Virus record (IMG/VR): IMGVR_UViG_3300044971_004578
Location: 1-22,582 of that record
Direction: 5' to 3' (one strand)
Source of the DNA: a virus
Length of the DNA stretch: 22,582 nucleotides
Shown piece after piece: positions 2,655 through 21,320 of the stretch. Position numbers and translations under genes: made by a program. The notes under the pieces are model-generated. The model did no database searches. It was not told where the DNA came from and saw only the letters and a program-made list of their open reading frames with translations. Every line of letters begins with the position of its first letter. The stretch's first letter is position 1.

Positions 2655-3353
2655 TCAATACATCAGGCCGGTAAGTTGATCGACAACGCTGCTTGAGCCG
2701 TTGTAGTTCACGTTCATAGCCATTGAAAACATGTTGCTTCGATACGTGCTAAAAAAATCACCCGCTGACTTTGCGCCGTTGAAATTGAGGGTCGTTGGCC
2801 ATCCCGTTGCAATTGTCACGTCGGATGTGGCTTGATAGTAAACAAAAAGGTCATTTGCGCCGGAAATGTTGTGTATGATTCCATTTCCCGTGAACAAACT
2901 TGGCGCGCTGTTGACCACTCCAACAACATACGTTTTTGTGCGGTCGAACTTTATAGGAACCGAGAAGTTTATGACTGATTCAATGAACGATGGACCAGTC
3001 ACCGTTGCAAATGAACCTTGCACAAACACAAGCGTGAAACCTCTAGACTTTGGCCTGTATTCGTATATTGCTGATCCGATGTTGGCAGTTCCTGCACTCA
3101 TGGTGCCGTACAAGTTGTAGATCCCGTACCCGGTCATTTCTGCTGGATCTCGGAACTTGAGACGTGCAAACCTTGCCTTGTTGGCTACAAGCGGACATGC
3201 GCCTGTCGATGTGAGCGCGTCATCGACCGTGACCGGAAGACGTGCCATCGACGCATCCATCGTTACATATGCGCTGGCCTGCACCGCGCTGTTCCGCATC
3301 ACGCTGTTGCGAGACAGTGCTGCTCCTGGAAACAGGACCGGCGTCTGGCTCAT
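2655..3353 (-). CDS. AT-rich beta-type putative tail or surface protein
   Basis: 232 residues, no recognised family. It has many Ser, Thr, Asn, Gly, Tyr and Val residues, with beta-like stretches such as RGFTLVFVQGSFATVTGPSF (about 105-125) and KTYVVGVVNSAPSLF. The start ATG at 3353 overlaps the preceding stop as ATGA and has GGGAGG 5 bases upstream. Base use is unlike the neighbours: a hand count of 2701-3120 gives about 45% GC against roughly 58-65% in sampled flanking genes, with A- and T-ending codons common. It follows the large neck/nozzle-like gene. Recent acquisition plus a beta-rich product fits a host-range or receptor-binding component; this is inference from position and composition. 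Confidence 0.75.
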   Translation of the reverse strand: MSQTPVLFPGAALSRNSVMRNSAVQASAYVTMDASMARLPVTVDDALTSTGACPLVANKARFARLKFRDPAEMTGYGIYNLYGTMSAGTANIGSAIYEYRPKSRGFTLVFVQGSFATVTGPSFIESVINFSVPIKFDRTKTYVVGVVNSAPSLFTGNGIIHNISGANDLFVYYQATSDVTIATGWPTTLNFNGAKSAGDFFSTYRSNMFSMAMNVNYNGSSSVVDQLTGLMY

Positions 3354-5470: not shown

Positions 5471-6030
5471 CAGACCACCGAGCCCTTGCGAGAGCGGTGG
5501 CTGTCAGCCGCGGTCTTCTCCTCGATGGCGGCCAACTTGGCACGAAGAGCGGCGATCTCGCGCTCCGCAGCCACGTTCTGCTCCTGCAACTTGACCACGT
5601 TCTGCGTCGCCGTGATCGTTCCACCCAGCTTGATGGCGTCCGCCTTTTCGTGCGTCACCTCCTCGATGACGCGGTGGGCACCGATGAAGACCTTGGCAAC
5701 CCAGTCTTCCTTGCCGTCGTGGGACTTTCCGCTGCACTTGAAATGGCGGTCCTCCAGCGGCACCACGTTCAATCGGTCAAGTTCTTCATCGACCGCCGCC
5801 GCCGGCCCGATGGCGCAAACGGTGAAGTGATTGCCGTTCGCGAGCAGGAGCTTCATCACGCCGTTGTCGGACGGCTCCTCGTCGTGCGGGCCGAGTCCGA
5901 GCCAGAAACCGCCAGGAGCGATGGGCGGGCAACAGGTGTCCTTGACCCACTTGGGCACCGTCAGCGGGCGCCCGATGTAGCAGTAGTTGGTCTTGTTCCG
6001 GTAGTACTGCACGTTCTGGTTCTGCGACAT
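5470..6030 (-). CDS. Virion-operon protein with C-terminal coiled coil, function unknown
   Basis: 186 residues, not recognised. Residues 1-120 form a compact domain with several aromatic residues and Cys pairs (C33/C34) near CCPPIAPGGFWLGLG. Residues about 143-172 are a clear heptad-type amphipathic helix (VVKLQEQNVAAEREIAALRA), so the protein probably oligomerises. The tail is short and basic. ATG at 6030 follows AAGGAG with ideal spacing, nine bases after the upstream stop, and the stop overlaps the next start. Its place between the adaptor-like and nozzle-like genes makes a neck or tail-assembly role likely, but a chaperone or non-virion helper is possible. Confidence 0.75.
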   Translation of the reverse strand: MSQNQNVQYYRNKTNYCYIGRPLTVPKWVKDTCCPPIAPGGFWLGLGPHDEEPSDNGVMKLLLANGNHFTVCAIGPAAAVDEELDRLNVVPLEDRHFKCSGKSHDGKEDWVAKVFIGAHRVIEEVTHEKADAIKLGGTITATQNVVKLQEQNVAAEREIAALRAKLAAIEEKTAADSHRSRKGSVV

Positions 6031-6039
6031 TGCCGCTCC

Positions 6040-6726
6040 TTAGCCTTGCCAGATGGTGGCGTTCTGCTGCTCGACGAGCTGAATGTGGTTGTCGGGTACA
6101 AGCCGCTCGACATAGGCAATGTACCTCTCCAGCAAAGCATCGCGCGCGTCAATCAGCGAGTTTGCAGGGTCTTCGTTGATCTGGCGCAACCGGATGGCCG
6201 CGGCCATTGCGTACAGGTGAGCAAACATGGCCGGAATCTCGGTGAACGTGTCCGTCGCGTTGGCCAGAGGCGTCAGCGCCGGGAGATAGAACACCGTCAG
6301 GTTCACCACGGCGGTCGGCACCGGGCGCAGGCGAATCTGCGTTCCGTTGATGGCGTAGCACTTGGCATACCCTGTCTCGCTGATGTTTGCGAACTCGCGG
6401 ACGCGGATGGGCTCAAGGACCGTCTGGAACGACGACGCCGTGGACTGGTCGCGGGCGTAGACGTGAACAATCTGCGCCTGCTGGGCGGCAACCGGCAGAG
6501 TCACGTTCTCGGCCAGCGCAGGATACGTGAACGACGCGGATGTGATGAATCGGTCAGGAGCGCCGGTAGATACGAGCATGTACGTCTCGTTCCGAGCTTC
6601 GTTGATGGCGGCAATGATCTCGGAGTTCTTCGGCTTCCCCGTGTCGTCGGCAAACGTCGTGTTTGCCTTGTTCATCATCTGCTTTACGCGGACGACAAGG
6701 TCTTCAAGCGTTCCGAGATACGCCAT
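6040..6726 (-). CDS. Head-tail adaptor-like protein
   Basis: 228 residues. The opening has a helical pattern LEDLVVRVKQMMNKA, then NSEIIAAINEARNETYMLV (about 34-52); the 'I-x-x-A-I-N-x-A' helix is typical of phage head-tail adaptor (connector) proteins that ring the portal. A beta-rich middle (60-165) and a C-terminal helical bundle (170-215) fit the fold seen in podovirus adaptors such as those of SU10 or T7 gp11. I infer the family from this pattern, its size and its place between the capsid gene and the nozzle-like gene; no search was run. ATG at 6726 has AGGAG six bases upstream, overlapping the end of the preceding gene. Confidence 0.6.
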   Translation of the reverse strand: MAYLGTLEDLVVRVKQMMNKANTTFADDTGKPKNSEIIAAINEARNETYMLVSTGAPDRFITSASFTYPALAENVTLPVAAQQAQIVHVYARDQSTASSFQTVLEPIRVREFANISETGYAKCYAINGTQIRLRPVPTAVVNLTVFYLPALTPLANATDTFTEIPAMFAHLYAMAAAIRLRQINEDPANSLIDARDALLERYIAYVERLVPDNHIQLVEQQNATIWQG

Positions 6727-9841: not shown

Positions 9842-12052
9842 TCACCCCTGCGGCGCGTCGTATGAGCGCGCCTGTTCAGCCACCGCCTGATACGCGGCAC
9901 TCTGGCCAGGATCAGCCGGTGGTTGGTTTGAAAACGGCTCCGCGCTCGATGCCGCTGGCGCCCCTCCGGTCGGCTGCGCCGCGACCTGCTGCTGCGTCTG
10001 CGCCGGCTGGAATGCCGGATTCGCGGCGTTCATCGCACCGTAGTTTGCCATGGCGGCCTGCTGCGCCATCTGCGGCGCAATGGCTTCCTCGGCTTCCAGC
10101 TGCGTGTGCATCTCCATGTGCTGCACGAGCCACGGGATCAGCGGGTCCTGCGGATTACGCATCTGGACAGACACCAGTTCCTTTGCGTGCACCACCTTGT
10201 GCAACTTGTGGTTCTGGTACTTGAGAGGCGCAGGCATGATGCCCTGCGTCTGTAGCATCTTGTCTTCCATCATCGCAAAGTCGCTGTGGCTGCGAAGGTC
10301 CGTGTACATGCCTTCGATGTCACCGAACTCGGCGTACTGCTGGTACTGATCGGGCGTGATGCCGCCGTTCTTGAGAGCCTCGGTCAGTTCGTCCATCTTC
10401 GACGCGCGGCTGCGGCCCACGTCGCGCACGGTACGCAAACGCACGTCGGTGGACTCTCCAACGTTCTCGGCGCGGAACTCGAAAGCCTCCTGCGAGCCCG
10501 TCTTTCCGAGTCGGCGGATGAGGCGACCGTCGTCGTAGAAGACGCGGCACAAATCCACGGTCCACTTGATGAGGCTGTCGAGGATGCGCGCGTGCTTGGC
10601 AATGACCGGTTTCAGCGGTCCGATGGCGTGTTCCTCAAGGAACGTCAGCGCACGCGCGGAGTCTGCGTTCTGATTGGCTCCGCGCAGAACCTCGGTCGCG
10701 GAACTGATGCGGTCGACCATGTCAAGCAAAGTCTGCTGCATGGTTTCCGCGTCCTGCGGATACGGCGCCAGTTGCACCGGCTGCGGCGACGGCAGATTGT
10801 TTCTGCCGCTGTAGATGAGGTGGCCGGTCTGGTCGTCCATCCGCATCTTGGTCTGCTCATGGTACGACATGCGAAGCTTGGCGCTGATTTTCGCGCGCGC
10901 GTTCTTCGACGACAGGTGCTCGTTGTACGTGATGATGAGCGGCAGGACGAGGTCAAGCGTCGACTGCGGGTAGTACATCCCGTCCGTCTCGTACATCGGG
11001 AAGTAGAAGTAGGGGCTCCATTGGCGGCTGTCGTGCAGATACGGAAGCGGCCCGGAGTAGATTTCCTGGTCCGACAGGTGAACGCTGAAGACACCCATCG
11101 GGTACTCGGCGCACGGTTTCCAGTAGTACTCGCGCACCGAGATGTACTTGAGCGTCGTCGGGCGCATCAGAACCACGGCGCTGCTGGTGCGGTACGAACC
11201 CATCATCTCGTTCCCGAGAGGGGCACGCTGGAACACCTCGAACGGAATGCCGAGCGGCTCGCCGTAGCAGCGGTATGCCCGCTCAGGGGACATGCGGATG
11301 TGCTGGACCATCTCCTCGGCGTCGCCGGGACACCGAGCGTCGGGGTCCGTGTACATGTCGTCCGGGTGGATCGCCATGTACGCGATGTCGCCCTCGGGCT
11401 TCATGCCGCCGAACTCGGAGATGTAACCAGGAGGCGACGGAGGACGGGTCGGACCCGGCTGCACGCCTTCCGCGTTGCACTTGGGGCACGCTTTTGCGTC
11501 TGGCATCCACACGATGCCGGTGGCGTTGCACTGGCTGCACGGCACTTGGTTGAACAGCGGCTTGTGATTTCCCGCGGTGGGATCCCACGGAGCCTTGATC
11601 CACGCATGACCGTAAAGATTGCACATCTGCGCGGCGCGCGCGTAGGCGTCGCCAAGCTGCGCCGACTCGATGGCGCTGTTGGCCAGTTCCGCGGCGACAT
11701 GGGCGCGAGCGATGTCCTCCTGGTCTTGCGTACGCGGGCTGGCCTCGCACAACGGTTCGTAGAACATGACGCCGCTGATGGTGCGGACCACGTCAAACGC
11801 GAGGTTCGCGTACACGAAGTTCTGGCGACGGTCCGGGTTCAAGCCAACAACGGTCGCGGACGTGGGGATGCGCCGGAAGTACGGGCGACCCGCGTACCAG
11901 TTGAGGTTGACCCAGTTGTCCATCTCCCGGATCATCCGTGGTGCCTGACGCGCGCGCTGCAGCAGATCCTGCTGTCGCAGGGTCACGTTGAGCCCCTTGA
12001 GGTACGCCTCGTCGCGTACCGCTCTGAACCCCACGTTGCCCCGGTCGAACAT
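9842..12052 (-). CDS. Portal protein with a zinc-ribbon-like insert
   Basis: 736 residues, typical for large podovirus portals. The N-terminal part has the portal-type pattern NWVNLNWYAGRPYF and NFVYANLAFDVVRTISGVMF; the central part has the long-helix region with NEHLSSKNARAKISAKLRMS and ATEVLRGANQNADSARALTF, and the C-terminal ~90 residues are Gln/Ala/Pro-rich and disordered. Twelve portal subunits would form the DNA channel at one capsid vertex and dock the terminase. Unusual: Cys172, Cys175, Cys189 and Cys192 form two CxxC knuckles (CSQCNATG and CPKCNAEG) like one DnaJ-type zinc finger, probably in the outer wing. It precedes scaffold and capsid genes, and ATG at 12052 overlaps the upstream stop as TGATG. 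Confidence 0.85.
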   Translation of the reverse strand: MFDRGNVGFRAVRDEAYLKGLNVTLRQQDLLQRARQAPRMIREMDNWVNLNWYAGRPYFRRIPTSATVVGLNPDRRQNFVYANLAFDVVRTISGVMFYEPLCEASPRTQDQEDIARAHVAAELANSAIESAQLGDAYARAAQMCNLYGHAWIKAPWDPTAGNHKPLFNQVPCSQCNATGIVWMPDAKACPKCNAEGVQPGPTRPPSPPGYISEFGGMKPEGDIAYMAIHPDDMYTDPDARCPGDAEEMVQHIRMSPERAYRCYGEPLGIPFEVFQRAPLGNEMMGSYRTSSAVVLMRPTTLKYISVREYYWKPCAEYPMGVFSVHLSDQEIYSGPLPYLHDSRQWSPYFYFPMYETDGMYYPQSTLDLVLPLIITYNEHLSSKNARAKISAKLRMSYHEQTKMRMDDQTGHLIYSGRNNLPSPQPVQLAPYPQDAETMQQTLLDMVDRISSATEVLRGANQNADSARALTFLEEHAIGPLKPVIAKHARILDSLIKWTVDLCRVFYDDGRLIRRLGKTGSQEAFEFRAENVGESTDVRLRTVRDVGRSRASKMDELTEALKNGGITPDQYQQYAEFGDIEGMYTDLRSHSDFAMMEDKMLQTQGIMPAPLKYQNHKLHKVVHAKELVSVQMRNPQDPLIPWLVQHMEMHTQLEAEEAIAPQMAQQAAMANYGAMNAANPAFQPAQTQQQVAAQPTGGAPAASSAEPFSNQPPADPGQSAAYQAVAEQARSYDAPQG

Positions 12053-12330
12053 CAGGTCACCCCGCTACGGTTCGGATCGGCCACATCGGTCATGTCCTTG
12101 GCGAACGTGGTCGACCACACCGGGTTGGCCATGTCGGGAGGAACCTCCACCCGCGCTGCCTGGCGCTTGTTGCGCCTCACCGGCTTGACCATGTCCGACA
12201 AGACCTCCGCGGACTCCTTCGACGTCAGGCTCGTCAGCGCATACGCCATGCGAACCGCCATGAACGCAAGCGTCCCGACGCAAGACACGGCCACGAACGC
12301 CAGAACCAGTACGGCCACGATGCTTTCCAT
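12052..12330 (-). CDS. Small single-pass membrane protein, first gene of the virion operon
   Basis: 92 residues, not recognised. Residues about 4-26 are a continuous hydrophobic stretch (IVAVLVLAFVAVSCVGTLAF) that fits one transmembrane helix. The rest is polar with a basic patch (VRRNKRQAAR, about 50-59), so by the positive-inside rule the C-terminus is probably cytoplasmic. There is no signal-peptidase or lipobox site. ATG at 12330 has only a weak upstream site. It shares TGATG with the portal start, so the two are probably co-translated. Its place at the head of the morphogenesis operon is odd for a membrane protein. A holin-like role or a membrane anchor for procapsid assembly could be considered, but neither is shown. 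Confidence 0.7.
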   Translation of the reverse strand: MESIVAVLVLAFVAVSCVGTLAFMAVRMAYALTSLTSKESAEVLSDMVKPVRRNKRQAARVEVPPDMANPVWSTTFAKDMTDVADPNRSGVT

Positions 12331-12398: not shown

Positions 12399-13595
12399 AT
12401 GAAGCCACCTTCAGAAGGACTGCTGGAGTTCCTTTCCGGGCTCGACGCCGGCCAGCCCGACAAGGTAGAAAAGGTCAAAGCCACCAAGTTCTCGCAGCTT
12501 GGCTGGGACGACAAGTTGTTCAAGAAGTGGATTGTCAACGCGCTCCGCATCGAGGACAAGACCACCAACGCCATGCTCCCGCTGGGTCCGCTGCTGATGG
12601 CCAACCGGCCACAGGCGGAACTGCTCTTCACCATCCTCAAGGCACTCGACCGTGGCGGACCCGTCCGGTTCCTGGTGTTGAAGAGCCGCAAGGTCGGTGT
12701 GTCGACCATCGTGGTGGAACTGCTGCTGGCCATGGCAATGCAGCTCAAGGGGATCACCTGCGCCATCCTTGCCCACACCGACGAGTCTTCGCTGAAACTT
12801 TTCAAGATCGCCCGTGACTCCTACGAGAACCTGCCAAAGGATCTCAAGAACGCGCTCCCTACGCGGTACAACGCGCAGGATCGCATCCAGTTCGGCAACA
12901 AGGACTACGAGAAACTGAAGGCGCAGGATTTTGGGCACGTCGCGCTCATCAAGTCTCAGACCGCCGCAGGACAGTACCCGCTGACGGGCGACACGGTGCG
13001 CGTGCTGCACCTATCCGAGTGCGCCAAGTACGACGCCGTGGGCGACCACGCAGCCCAGCAGCGGTTCATCCTGTCTGCGCTTGGCGCCGTCCCGAAACTT
13101 GGACCGTCGCTGGTCATCGCGGAGTCCACCGCCAACGGTCAGCAGGGATGGTTCTACAACGAGTGGCAGCGGGCATCGAAAGCCCAAGCCGACGGTGAGA
13201 CTACGTCCAACTGGATCCCCCTGTTCTTCTCATGGCTGGAGGATCCTGCATGCTGGGCTCCCGTGCCGCACGGCTACGACTGGTCGCGGTGGCCGGCGGA
13301 AGATCAGAAGACCGAGGCCATGCTGCGCGACACGTTCTTTGCCAAGCCGGAACAACTGTACTTTCGGCGGTCGCAGATCAACATCGAGATGGCCGGTAAC
13401 TACGAACTGTTCGACCAGGAGTATCCGACGACGCCCAGCGGGGCGTTCCTTGCGTCCGGTCGACCTGCGGTACCACGGCGCTACATCAAGGCCATGGAAG
13501 CCATGGTGACCGACGACTACCGGCGCTACACGGCCAAGGTGATTGACAGTTACGACTCGACGATGACCGTCGACGTGGTGACGGAGCGCGCATGA
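12399..13595 (+). CDS. terL: Terminase large subunit, ATPase half (split gene)
   Basis: 398 residues. It powers DNA packaging by ATP hydrolysis at the portal. Visible motifs are a deviant Walker A SRKVGVST (96-103), a Walker B with catalytic Glu, VLHLSE (202-207), and the coupling motif ESTANG (242-247) with the familiar GWFYNEW after it. There is no RuvC-like nuclease domain: the protein stops about 50 residues after the FLASG segment, where a normal TerL runs on into its nuclease. That domain is the next gene, which starts inside this stop codon (ATGA). I chose ATG at 12399; an upstream in-frame TTG at 12348 would crowd the divergent gene and adds residues unlike a TerL start. Together the two products have about 668 residues, a normal large TerL size. 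Confidence 0.85.
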   Translation: MKPPSEGLLEFLSGLDAGQPDKVEKVKATKFSQLGWDDKLFKKWIVNALRIEDKTTNAMLPLGPLLMANRPQAELLFTILKALDRGGPVRFLVLKSRKVGVSTIVVELLLAMAMQLKGITCAILAHTDESSLKLFKIARDSYENLPKDLKNALPTRYNAQDRIQFGNKDYEKLKAQDFGHVALIKSQTAAGQYPLTGDTVRVLHLSECAKYDAVGDHAAQQRFILSALGAVPKLGPSLVIAESTANGQQGWFYNEWQRASKAQADGETTSNWIPLFFSWLEDPACWAPVPHGYDWSRWPAEDQKTEAMLRDTFFAKPEQLYFRRSQINIEMAGNYELFDQEYPTTPSGAFLASGRPAVPRRYIKAMEAMVTDDYRRYTAKVIDSYDSTMTVDVVTERA

Positions 13596-14404
13596 CCTCG
13601 GTGCAGATCCGCAAGATGGGCGACGGGCCGGAAGGACTGGGCGAGATTCACGTCCTTGAAGAGCCCGTCGAGGGCGCGCAGTACATCATCGGAGCCGACG
13701 TCGCGCAGGGAGCCACGTTCGGTACGGCCAAGCAGGACGCGGACGAGTCCACGCTGTGCGTGCTGCGACGTGACGGGATGCAGCTCATACAGGTGTGCGA
13801 GGCCGCGTACCGCTCCGAGAACTACGTGTTCGGACAGGTTCTTGCCGCCATCGGCACCTGGTACAACCACGCGTTCGTCAACGTGGAGCGCAACCTGGCG
13901 CACGGCGTCATCGCGGGCCTCAAGTCCTCCGGTTACCCCGTCGAACGCTGGTACGTGCCGCCCATCCAGTCATCCACGCTGGACGCGTCCGCGGCGCAGT
14001 ATTTCTTTCACAAGAACGCCAGCACTCAGAAGGTTCTGCTGGACACGCTCATCGCGTACATGGACCCGGAGGCGCCGCGACTGCGCCTGTTCTCCAAGCG
14101 GTGCCTCAACGAGATCGGGTCGCTACAGCGGGACGCCAACGGCGCCATCAACACCAACGGCAAGGACCGCACGATTGCCCTCGCCATGGCGGTCATTGTA
14201 GACGCCACAACCGAGTTCGAGGTCGAACTGCTGGAGAAGAAGAAGGCTCGCCCCATCGCCCCGTTCGGGGTCGACGAGGAACAATGGAACGAGCTTCATG
14301 GCATCAAGAACGTGCGTCCGCAGCAGTCCGACGAGGTTCCTGACTGGGAGGGCTCGGGTGAAACAGACGACGCGTGGGTTGGCGACTGGACGGAGATGAA
14401 CTAG
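13592..14404 (+). CDS. terL: Terminase large subunit, nuclease half (split gene)
   Basis: 270 residues. This is the RNase H/RuvC-like nuclease domain that cuts concatemeric phage DNA. The three catalytic acidic residues are placed as in the family: Asp36 in YIIGADVAQG, Glu99 in VNVERNLAHG, and Asp192 in KDRTIALAMA; Asp51 nearby may also help. The N-terminal ~28 residues (GLGEIHVLEEPVEG) match the linker strand that normally joins the ATPase and nuclease domains. The start ATG overlaps the stop of the ATPase gene by four bases, in a different frame, so translation is probably coupled. The C-terminal ~60 residues are acidic and may be flexible. A sequencing frameshift is the main alternative to a real split. 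Confidence 0.85.
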   Translation: MTSVQIRKMGDGPEGLGEIHVLEEPVEGAQYIIGADVAQGATFGTAKQDADESTLCVLRRDGMQLIQVCEAAYRSENYVFGQVLAAIGTWYNHAFVNVERNLAHGVIAGLKSSGYPVERWYVPPIQSSTLDASAAQYFFHKNASTQKVLLDTLIAYMDPEAPRLRLFSKRCLNEIGSLQRDANGAINTNGKDRTIALAMAVIVDATTEFEVELLEKKKARPIAPFGVDEEQWNELHGIKNVRPQQSDEVPDWEGSGETDDAWVGDWTEMN

Positions 14405-14416
14405 CGCGAAAAGAAA

Positions 14417-14440
14417 GAGCCCGGGTTGCCGCCCGGGCTC
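14417..14440 (-). terminator. Strong hairpin terminator, best fit to the leftward recombination operon
   Basis: GAGCCCGGG, loop TTGCCG, CCCGGGCTC make a perfect nine-pair, GC-rich stem. Read on the minus strand it is followed by a T-rich tail (TTTCTTTTCG at 14416-14407). On the plus strand the tail is CTTGGAACTG, not T-rich. It lies between two converging operons, so it may stop both, but it is best formed for transcripts coming from the recT operon. Confidence 0.75.
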
Positions 14441-14519: not shown

Positions 14520-15317
14520 TCAACCTTTTTTCGCCGCCTCGACCACCCTGTCGAGCGCGCCCTTCTCCTCCACGACCTCGCCCGTCACATCATCGAACGG
14601 ACCAACCTCGTCACGCACGACGGTACCCGTGCGCTCCAGCACCTCCTCGGCTTCGATGATGCGGTGCGCCTCCGGGCTCATTGGCAGCATCTTTGCCAAC
14701 TTCCGCAGCGGCGTCTTGCGCCACATCTCTTCCTCATGCGTCTCCCACGGCGTCTTGCGCCCGCCGGCCTTGCGGATGGCCTCACCCTTCACCTTCTCGA
14801 TCTGGCCCTTCAGCATCACCTCCATCTGGAAGCCGCCATCCTTGAAATGGGCGATGGCGTAGGCGTGCGTCAACCTCGCGGGGTCCGTCTCTCCCATGGG
14901 CGTGTGCTTCAGCGTCGGGTTCATGCCGTAGGAGTACGAAAACTCGTCGCCAGCGAACACGGCCCGCGCCTCGATGGACTTGATCTGGCCCGACCGGCGA
15001 GCGAGTTCAACGAGCCCCTTGTATCCGAGGATGAGCTGGCACTCCTTGCCGTACGGCACAAAGTACGCCTGCCCCATCAGACCGCCCACCTCCAGGCCCA
15101 ACTGCGCCACCTGGCCGATGGCGCCCATCAGCGAGGCCGCATCGCAGTCGAGCAGCTTCGGGTTCTTCCGCAGTTCCGTCAGCACGATGCGGACAAGCCG
15201 CTTGTCGTCGATGCCGCGCGGAATCGCCTTGGCGATCTCGGCGCTGCGGGCGTTGATCATGCCCTGCACCGTCAGGAACTTCTGCTGCACCGGACTGTGA
15301 ACCATCGTCGTCGACAT
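14520..15317 (-). CDS. recT: RecT-family single-strand annealing protein
   Basis: 265 residues, the usual RecT size. It anneals complementary single strands made by the exonuclease of the same operon. The family signature is clear: AQLGLEVGGLMGQAYFVPYG (about 71-90) followed by CQLILGYKGLVELARRSG (about 93-110), then the FSYSYGMNPTLKHTP and HFKDGGFQ region. The C-terminal part is acidic (DDVTGEVVEEKG), as is common in annealing proteins that contact host SSB or helicase factors. The start ATG at 15317 overlaps the stop of a 54-residue gene by one base, with GAAAGGGG as a ribosome site inside that gene. It is the last gene before the hairpins. Confidence 0.92.
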   Translation of the reverse strand: MSTTMVHSPVQQKFLTVQGMINARSAEIAKAIPRGIDDKRLVRIVLTELRKNPKLLDCDAASLMGAIGQVAQLGLEVGGLMGQAYFVPYGKECQLILGYKGLVELARRSGQIKSIEARAVFAGDEFSYSYGMNPTLKHTPMGETDPARLTHAYAIAHFKDGGFQMEVMLKGQIEKVKGEAIRKAGGRKTPWETHEEEMWRKTPLRKLAKMLPMSPEAHRIIEAEEVLERTGTVVRDEVGPFDDVTGEVVEEKGALDRVVEAAKKG

Positions 15318-18492: not shown

Positions 18493-20384
18493 CTACCTCT
18501 GAACTTGCAGTGGTCGACGCCGAGGCGGAACCGCAACCCATCACCGTGGTGAACAACCACACGCTGTACAACGGAGACGTTGTCGCTGACTGCGCGTTCA
18601 CCGTGATGTGTCAGCGGGAGCAGGCCGACGGCACGCACGTGATGGATGTCGAGATCCGGCGCCATGACGGCATGACCTACACGGCGTCCATCGACGGCGT
18701 GATGCTGGAGGACGAGAAGAAACTCAACGCCATGGGCTCCTCCGTGGCGCGCGCCAACTTCTTCTTCCGGGCGAAGAACGGCTCGCTGGCGGCGCTGAAG
18801 CAGTACCTCCACGCGCAACCGGGCAACGAGCATGTCGTCATCGACGTGGCACAGGCGGGCTGGAACAACCGCTACTGCTGCTGGTTCGGCGAGATGGGCA
18901 TGGTCGACGCCAACGGCAAATGGTACCCGTGGACGTCCACGGGCGTGCGCGCCCCGTGCCGCGACCGTGCCACGTCGTCGTACCGCATGAAGACGTTCAA
19001 CCTGCGACGCGACCCGTTCGGTCCCGACATCCCGGTGATCGATCGTCCTGGCCACATCATGGGCAGCGTGTACGAACTGAAGCCAAAGGGACTGTTCCGC
19101 ACCGAGGCTGGCACGCAGCCCGTCGCGGTTTCCGACAGCGAGCCGACCATCGACGAGGCGCTGGACGAGGCGCTGGCGAAGGCGCGCACGCACATCCAGC
19201 AGGTGATCGCACTCTGGTCCGAGAACATCGGCAACTTCGGCGGCGCCATCGGAATCGGCTACATGACCGCCGCCTCCATCCGGCACCACGCGGAGTCCTA
19301 CGAGCGTCTGTTCCCGCATCTTTACATCACGGGACGCACGCAGTTCGGCAAGGACACGCTGGCCCGCATCCTCGCGTTGACCACCGGCATGAACATCAAC
19401 AGCGTCACGTCCGGTGGGCGAGGCACCACCGAAAAGTCCGTCCGAAACAAGCTTGCATCCGTCGGAAACACGCCGCTGTGGCTCAACGAACTGCGCTCCG
19501 ACACGTCGGACTACCTCAAGAGCCTCATTCGCACGTCGTCGGACTTCCAGTCCAACACCATCACCGACATCAAGCAGCGCAACGTCGTGTTCCAGGCCAA
19601 CCGGCCCATGATGCTGGTGGGCGAGGTTCTCATCGGAAACGACGCGGAACACTCGCGGTACGTGGTGCTTCGGATCAACACGCGCCCGACCAACAAGTCG
19701 GTCCTGCGCCAACTGGAGGCGTCCGCCTCCCGATGCTCTTCTCATTGGTCGCAGTTCCTGTGCGACCACAACCGCGCCGCGTGGCAGATCGCGCTTGCCG
19801 CCGAGAAACTCCGCCCGGAGTTCATGGCCCGAGGGTGCGATTCACGTCGAGCCCGCGGGTGGTCGCTCACCGCGGCCGGCATCGCGTACTGGTTCTCACC
19901 CGACTGCCACATCGCGCCCGCCGAGTGCATCCCCGAGCAGATCATGGAGGAACTGTTCGCGCGTGCTGCGGAAGCGATGCAATACGCCGTTGACGATGGG
20001 GTCAATGCGGAGTTCTGGAGCATCTGCCAGTCCGTGCGCGCGTCGGGCGACCTGTCGAACTCCGCGTCGTCACGGTGGGCGCGCTCCTACGTCGACCCGG
20101 AGTCGAGGCGCGTCAACGTGGCCATCTGGACGGCCCACATCATCCGCTCCATCTCCAAGGCGTCACCCAAGGAGATGCCCGCCCGAGGACTCATCCTCAA
20201 CGAACTGCGCGCGGACCCCGGCTTTCTGGGCACGCGCAACGTCCGGTGCGGTGGCGAGCAGCGGGCCTGCTACGTTTACGACAAGCAGACCTGCAATCTT
20301 CCGCAATGGGTGCTGGACTCGGCGGACGAGCACTACGCCAAGGACGACGTCGTCATGTCGCCCGCGGCGGATGAACCGTATTGA
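18489..20384 (+). CDS. Large P-loop ATPase, probable replication protein (DUF927/SF3-like)
   Basis: 631 residues. The ATPase core is a Walker A GRTQFGKDT (282-290), then RGTTEKSVRNKL, a Walker B-like strand TPLWLNEL (328-335, Asn-Glu at its end), a sensor-like strand FQANRPMMLVGE (368-379) and a likely arginine finger near Arg390 in AEHSRYVVLRI. This layout is like DUF927 and viral SF3-type helicases. The C-terminal ~90 residues (AIWTAHIIRSISKASPKE onward) look like a winged-helix DNA-binding domain. Residues 1-240 are unlike a primase I know: no zinc-binding cysteine set is visible. It is likely to be the phage replicative helicase or initiator. It starts at ATGA in the nuclease stop and its last 32 bases run under the converging methylase gene. 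Confidence 0.65.
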   Translation: MTTSELAVVDAEAEPQPITVVNNHTLYNGDVVADCAFTVMCQREQADGTHVMDVEIRRHDGMTYTASIDGVMLEDEKKLNAMGSSVARANFFFRAKNGSLAALKQYLHAQPGNEHVVIDVAQAGWNNRYCCWFGEMGMVDANGKWYPWTSTGVRAPCRDRATSSYRMKTFNLRRDPFGPDIPVIDRPGHIMGSVYELKPKGLFRTEAGTQPVAVSDSEPTIDEALDEALAKARTHIQQVIALWSENIGNFGGAIGIGYMTAASIRHHAESYERLFPHLYITGRTQFGKDTLARILALTTGMNINSVTSGGRGTTEKSVRNKLASVGNTPLWLNELRSDTSDYLKSLIRTSSDFQSNTITDIKQRNVVFQANRPMMLVGEVLIGNDAEHSRYVVLRINTRPTNKSVLRQLEASASRCSSHWSQFLCDHNRAAWQIALAAEKLRPEFMARGCDSRRARGWSLTAAGIAYWFSPDCHIAPAECIPEQIMEELFARAAEAMQYAVDDGVNAEFWSICQSVRASGDLSNSASSRWARSYVDPESRRVNVAIWTAHIIRSISKASPKEMPARGLILNELRADPGFLGTRNVRCGGEQRACYVYDKQTCNLPQWVLDSADEHYAKDDVVMSPAADEPY

Positions 20385-20895
20385 CCTCGTTGCCCCACGC
20401 GTCCCATCCATCACGCGGCGTGCGGGAGAACATCTCCAGCCGCCGACCCGGAGGATCATGTTTTTCGATCAGCTCGTAGGACTCGCGTGGCTTGGCGCTG
20501 TGTCGCGTGCGGGGCGCGAACAATACGCTGGGGAGCCGGTTGGCGGGCGCCGGGATAGGCACGTTCCCGATGCGCCCGTACAGCAGGTGCTCATGCATCA
20601 TGCGGAAACGCTGTCCGAGCCCCGGTGCACCTGTCTTGACCCACACGACGTTCGTCACGTAGCGAGCGCCGAGTTCGCCCATGAGCCACATGGCGTCACC
20701 CAGAAAGTTCGCAGTGGCCCACATCCAGAGTGAACACGACGACGCCGGCCGGAACGCGCCGCCCGCGCGTATGACCCCTGGAATCTCCCGCGTCTTCACC
20801 AGCGGATAGTGCCGGTCCGCCCCGCGCTTGATGCGACCGCCTCCACGCTCCATCCATGGAGGGTCCATCAGGATCGTCGTGTACGCTTCAGCCAC
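20353..20895 (-). CDS. MT-A70-type N6-adenine DNA methyltransferase
   Basis: 180 residues. It would transfer a methyl group from SAM to adenine N6, in DNA by inference. The catalytic DPPW is at 11-14, the HYPLVKTREIPG stretch (29-40) is typical of MT-A70 proteins, and the end has the family close HSAKPRESYELIEKHDPPG then RRLEMFSR and GWDAWGNE. GTG at 20895 has GAGG five bases upstream and overlaps the deaminase gene by 28 bases; its last 32 bases run under the end of the converging replication ATPase gene. No partner restriction gene is in view, so this is an orphan methylase, perhaps anti-restriction or regulatory. It is the last gene of the right-hand minus operon. Confidence 0.85.
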   Translation of the reverse strand: MAEAYTTILMDPPWMERGGGRIKRGADRHYPLVKTREIPGVIRAGGAFRPASSCSLWMWATANFLGDAMWLMGELGARYVTNVVWVKTGAPGLGQRFRMMHEHLLYGRIGNVPIPAPANRLPSVLFAPRTRHSAKPRESYELIEKHDPPGRRLEMFSRTPRDGWDAWGNEVNTVHPPRAT

Positions 20896-21320
20896 ACGAT
20901 CCTCGCGTTCTCGTCCACGTGTTCAGCCGCGGACCTGACGTGCTGGCTGATGCGGTACTCCTCGCCGTAGAACACGCGTGCGATGCCCGCGTTGGCCAGC
21001 AGTTTGAAGCACACCCAGCATGGAAACGCGGTCACGTGGCAGTCCGCGCCGTCCACCACGATGCCGCGACGAGCGGCCTGGGCGATGGCGTTCGCTTCCG
21101 CATGCACCGTGCGGACGCAATGCCCGTCCTCCATGAGGTGGCCAGCCTCGTCGCAATGCGGCTCGCCGGCGACGGACCCGTTGTAGCCCGTCGCCAGCAC
21201 CGCGTTGTCGCGCACCAGCACCGCGCCCACGTGCTTGCGGTCGCACGTCGCACGGGTCGCTGCGTGCTGGGCAAGGCCCATAAAGTACTGCTTCCACGTG
21301 GGGCGGGTGCCTTCGTTCAT
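20868..21320 (-). CDS. dCMP deaminase
   Basis: 150 residues. It makes dUMP from dCMP for thymidylate synthesis. The zinc site is His73 in HAEANA (Glu75 catalytic) with Cys101 and Cys104 of PCWVC. The flanking VGAVLVRDNAVLATGYNGS (31-49) and PHCDEAGH (55-61) match phage dCMP deaminases; the extra Cys26, Cys56 and Cys68 and His61 are in places where T4-like enzymes carry a second zinc or allosteric site, which is suggestive only. The ATG at 21320 directly abuts the upstream stop (TGAATG). It is in an operon with a GroES-like and a methylase gene. No thymidylate synthase is in view. Confidence 0.92.
   Translation of the reverse strand: MNEGTRPTWKQYFMGLAQHAATRATCDRKHVGAVLVRDNAVLATGYNGSVAGEPHCDEAGHLMEDGHCVRTVHAEANAIAQAARRGIVVDGADCHVTAFPCWVCFKLLANAGIARVFYGEEYRISQHVRSAAEHVDENARIVWLKRTRRS

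Follow-up and report, generated by a model that had tools for sequence, protein, structure and literature searches.

A candidate two-gene large terminase, with ATPase and nuclease halves in overlapping genes, in an uncultured bacterial virus

Introduction

In packaging models, the ATPase of the large terminase (TerL) pulls a nuclease/DNA-gripping domain by way of a flexible covalent hinge. T4 gp17 is a single chain whose ATPase and nuclease domains share a mutual interface of >1000 square angstroms, and cutting it at the linker preserves the ATPase and nuclease activities but abolishes translocation (PMC3012670, PMC9958956). The isolated gp17 domains are enzymatically active (PMC3012670), and ATPase and nuclease domains have been crystallised separately. 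The terminase-type motor gp16 of phi29 combines an ATPase with an RNase H-like C-terminal domain (PMC7672431); it is one chain with a vestigial, inactive nuclease, and has no separate nuclease gene.

Two TerL-related genes, 4 and 10, are present in the cluster AT Arthrobacter phages KitKat and KellEzio (PMC5513430). They lie several genes apart, whereas the ORFs described here overlap. The cluster AN Arthrobacter phages were considered as a precedent and rejected, the two separate genes there being lysis genes. Some actinobacteriophage terminases are presumably also annotated as separate "ATPase domain" and "nuclease domain" genes. Given these annotations and the cluster AT report, a split terminase may have precedents; a keyword search of the open literature, with partial coverage, found no description of a terminase divided into ATPase and nuclease. 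Here we analyse one uncultured bacterial virus, represented by a single metagenomic contig of 22,582 bases (the window). It encodes the same two domains as gp17 in two ORFs instead of one chain and, in contrast to phi29 gp16, with the nuclease triad intact.

Results

Two ORFs carry the ATPase and nuclease halves of a large terminase

The features of the two ORFs are as follows.

12399-13595, plus strand: ORF1, large terminase ATPase half, 398 amino acids plus stop
12684-12707, plus strand: Walker A, residues 96-103 (SRKVGVST), from alignment columns of 38 sequences
13017-13019, plus strand: Walker B catalytic Glu207, invariant in 38 sequences
13122-13139, plus strand: coupling motif ESTANG, residues 242-247; E242, T244 and G247 invariant in 38 sequences
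13592-14404, plus strand: ORF2, large terminase nuclease half, 270 amino acids plus stop
13697-13699, plus strand: nuclease Asp36, invariant in 46 sequences
13886-13888, plus strand: nuclease Glu99, invariant in 46 sequences
14165-14167, plus strand: nuclease Asp192, invariant in 46 sequences

Neither ORF has a Pfam match, and both were assigned to their family from PHROGs, profiles and folds. ORF1 matched terminase families in PHROGs, and a profile built from ORF1 and 37 relatives matched the T4 gp17 ATPase structure 2o0h with an E value of 3e-18. Its AlphaFold2 model (pTM 0.77) matches 2o0h/2o0j (E 4e-10). In the Walker A stretch LKSRKVGVST, K95, R97 and S102 are invariant and G100 and T103 near-invariant across the 38 sequences. 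With its Walker A, Walker B plus catalytic Glu, and coupling motif, ORF1 is predicted to be a complete terminase ATPase of the ASCE type. The profile of ORF2 and 45 relatives matched the nuclease of RB49 gp17 (3c6a, E 2e-22) and that of T4 gp17 (E 1e-18), and the ORF2 AlphaFold2 model (pTM 0.74) matches 3cpe, the whole of gp17, and 5m1f. By sequence and predicted fold, and with its acidic triad present, ORF2 amounts to a full terminase nuclease of the RNase H type.

The first-pass annotation had assigned the ATPase motifs to the first gene and the full nuclease triad to the second, and the alignments bear out both assignments residue by residue. It had also placed the break in the natural linker with both domains intact, which agrees with the linker alignment, the profiles and the predicted folds. 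Its view that the combined size is normal needs slight adjustment: the two products total 668 amino acids, a little longer than most relatives (~525-640 amino acids). No domain appears to have been lost across the pair. ORF1 and ORF2 are thus a large terminase by sequence and fold, and atypical in that a TerL is expected as one polypeptide and here occupies two ORFs in different frames.

The coding frame switches at an ATGA overlap

The second gene begins inside the stop codon of the first in another frame, as the first-pass annotation had stated; the ORF2 frame is -1 relative to ORF1.

13583-13586, plus strand: GGAG, Shine-Dalgarno-like, 5 nt ahead of the ORF2 start
13592-13595, plus strand: ATGA, the ORF2 start overlapping the ORF1 stop

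The ORF2 frame meets a TGA upstream, at 13544, and has no ATG, GTG or TTG from there to 13592, which leaves ORF2 no alternative upstream start. A codon-usage likelihood, for which the window's other genes served as training set, put the switch from the ORF1 to the ORF2 frame at 13586-13591, i.e., at the junction; the coding signal follows the ORF1 frame as far as the stop and the ORF2 frame from the ATG onwards. Stop-start overlap, ribosome-binding motif and coding signal on both sides are the marks of a translation-coupled gene pair. The same junction style recurs in a second gene pair of this phage, GGGAGGCGCGG-ATGA at 3350-3353.

An alternative is recoding, e.g., ribosomes shifting by -1 ahead of the ORF1 stop, which would give a joined protein plus a minor ATPase-only product and leave the motor in effect a single chain. 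Both frames are open together for ~48 nt (13547-13595) at the -1 offset that this would use, and a joined product would account for a retained covalent hinge. The overlap, however, contains no slippery heptamer, 13540-13595 has no homopolymer of 3 or more, and the RNA fold downstream of the junction is unremarkable (z -1.2), so that neither the heptamer nor the stimulatory structure of a programmed -1 frameshift was found. The absence of heptamer and homopolymer disfavours both a programmed -1 frameshift and a run-length sequencing error. The ORF2-frame codons ahead of the ATG are, moreover, not coding-like, and ORF2 has its own GGAG and ATG. We regard recoding as very unlikely.

Related large terminases are single chains

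Among 244 loci, 235 encode ATPase and nuclease in one open frame, in agreement with the single chain that the first-pass annotation had taken as the TerL norm; the others are the window itself, five genes ended by the edge of the locus and three broken copies. A further 26 loci include 25 with both domains in one open frame, counting one (L268) whose ATPase is interrupted by an in-frame stop, and a 26th (L254) that is the contig of the nearest relative again, in opposite orientation. Some loci are one contig fetched twice, and related TerL genes total ~250. Because these ~250 genes, the closest included, are single chains, the split must either have arisen in this lineage or be an error.

The closest relative, IMGVR_UViG_3300049489_001181 (L086/L245, a 44,024-base contig), has a continuous TerL orthologous to that of the window, with ~43% identity in each half. 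By tblastn, its residues 282-621 align with 12501-13514 (frame 3) and its residues 630-838 with 13622-14236 (frame 2). Continuity in close relatives is half of what the first-pass annotation had set against the split, and the closest relative, at ~43% identity, is indeed continuous, as are the others checked apart from a few broken copies. Both halves match TerL families, and no relative sharing the ORF1/ORF2 split was found among the loci compared. Scanning the viral collection for exact peptides from ORF1, from ORF2 and from the major capsid protein returned no close relatives, and a portal-based scan returned the L086 contig again and nothing else.

Broken TerL genes make up ~1-2% of the fetched loci (L064, L184, L187 and L268). 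L064 (~1777-1901) and L184 (~6028-6047) were rejected as parallel splits: each breaks inside conserved nuclease sequence, with sequence lost in L064. L187 (5592-5594) and L268 (1215-1217) were rejected as domain splits; they carry an in-frame TAA within the ATPase of an otherwise normal TerL, possibly an error, a pseudogene or a case of stop-codon readthrough.

The junction differs from a random indel

An assembly or sequencing error would mean that the true gene encodes one chain and that a small indel within 13547-13595, or a more complex misassembly, produced the ATGA. Continuity in nearly all other relatives, L086 included, and the background of broken copies both favour this reading. We compared the junction with L086 and with simulated indels.

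13515-13621, plus strand: segment around the junction, unmatched in the closest relative (tblastn and linker alignment)

This segment has 36 codons in the window against 8 residues in the L086 TerL (~27 extra), and 93 residues would separate the EYP motif from the first nuclease Asp in the window, against 72 in L086. The junction lies inside ~27 residues that L086 lacks, so the loss of one base from a gene that otherwise matches would not by itself account for it. The extra length is weak evidence by itself, because TerL linkers vary naturally: across 206 single chains the EYP-to-Asp linker has a median of 77 residues, and in 11 of them it equals or exceeds that of the window in length. With this caveat on linker variability, a split inside extra sequence is more in keeping with remodelling of the linker than with the loss of one base.

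One-base indels were placed in the linkers of ~230 continuous TerL genes. A first-ATG ATGA overlap arose in 1.2% of trials and an ATGA plus a Shine-Dalgarno 4-mer in 0.02%, and over whole genes the rate of neat junctions was ~2%; these are rates under the error model and not the probability of an error, and their reading is affected by selection, the window having been chosen for its neatness, which raises the odds that a chance ATGA is met. With that qualification, the first-pass view that the arrangement is unlike a random indel holds, and the frame-changed relatives L064 and L184 point the same way, with their breaks inside conserved nuclease sequence. An error is also opposed by the lack of a homopolymer near the junction and by the switch of codon signal exactly at the ATGA. 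The other genes common to L086 and the window each occupy one frame, so no further frame errors are seen in the contig, which speaks for its quality. On balance an error is unlikely, though it has to be taken seriously.

Genomic context

ORF1 and ORF2 lie beside the portal gene, among genes for packaging and structure.

9842-12052, minus strand: portal gene, diverging from the plus-strand ORF1 and ORF2
14417-14440, plus strand: perfect 10-bp hairpin, G+C-rich and strong, directly after ORF2, without a T run

The layout of L086 matches: its portal gene, 40% identical, is likewise divergent and next to TerL, and the corresponding region holds TerL, portal, capsid, helicase and replication genes. 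A small gene with a hydrophobic N-terminal stretch (12052-12330) sits between TerL and portal, and L086 has a comparable small hydrophobic gene at the matching position.

The window probably represents about half a genome, because the contig of the relative is 44 kb. ORF1 and ORF2 might then be something other than the main terminase, with a second, single-chain TerL in the unseen part. Both ORFs nevertheless match the L086 TerL and lie beside the portal gene exactly where the L086 TerL lies, which leaves a second TerL extremely improbable. No small terminase gene was recognised adjoining the large terminase genes (12399-14404); such a gene could be in the half of the genome that is missing, or could have escaped recognition.

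The hairpin (fold -21.5 kcal/mol, z -2.5) stands between the terminase genes and a convergent gene at 14520-15317. It is possibly the end of the two-gene transcript, or a two-way transcription end. Elsewhere in the window, an MT-A70-like adenine methyltransferase with a DPPW motif (20353-20895) and a deoxycytidylate deaminase-like gene (20868-21320) were tentatively recognised by eye.

Discussion

The window contains two ORFs with intact catalytic residues, correct domain boundaries and a frame change at their overlap. We consider it probable that this large terminase is genuinely encoded as two genes, through a split specific to this lineage, whose translation is coupled and whose two proteins assemble into one motor; the expression of both proteins, their pairing and a working motor are inferred.

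ORF1 and ORF2 would be carried on one short plus-strand message, with ORF1, the ATPase and lid, translated first. Ribosomes finishing at the ORF1 TGA could restart at the overlapping ATG, or begin anew there by means of the GGAG, and translate ORF2, the predicted DNA-gripping domain and RNase H nuclease. Both products would then associate, probably by the extensive contact surface that ATPase and nuclease are known to share in single-chain terminases, perhaps with a contribution from the extra tail of ORF1, and would form the usual ring on the portal, where ORF1 would power translocation and ORF2 make the starting and ending cuts.

The first-pass annotation had proposed a stable two-subunit packaging motor. 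The two genes do look genuine and coupled; "stable", in the sense of conserved, was not supported by the comparison, the relatives being continuous save for the broken copies. The proposal also faces, on our analysis, an obstacle that the annotation had not considered, the loss of translocation by linker-split T4 gp17. Because the T4 motor fails when cut at that place, a natural split would be surprising, and a working one would have to replace the hinge by non-covalent contacts, plausibly the ATPase-nuclease interface together with the ORF1 extra tail. If the split motor does not work, either the genome is defective or the sequence is wrong.

If the genome is defective or decaying, a genuine mutation would have put the split in the DNA and left the motor dead. 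The T4 result and the lack of any related split lineage among those found favour such a reading. Against it, both halves keep their catalytic residues and normal coding bias, as a recently broken copy also might, and the other genes in common with L086 are intact; we judge decay to be rather improbable.

We see an even chance that the two genes encode a natural, functional two-subunit TerL, in which non-covalent assembly replaces the covalent hinge and nuclease and ATPase can be supplied in unequal amounts. If so, the covalent ATPase-nuclease link would be dispensable, contrary to the view based on T4, and the virus would offer ready-made separate subunits for studying force transmission. Cutting and pumping could then be titrated separately.
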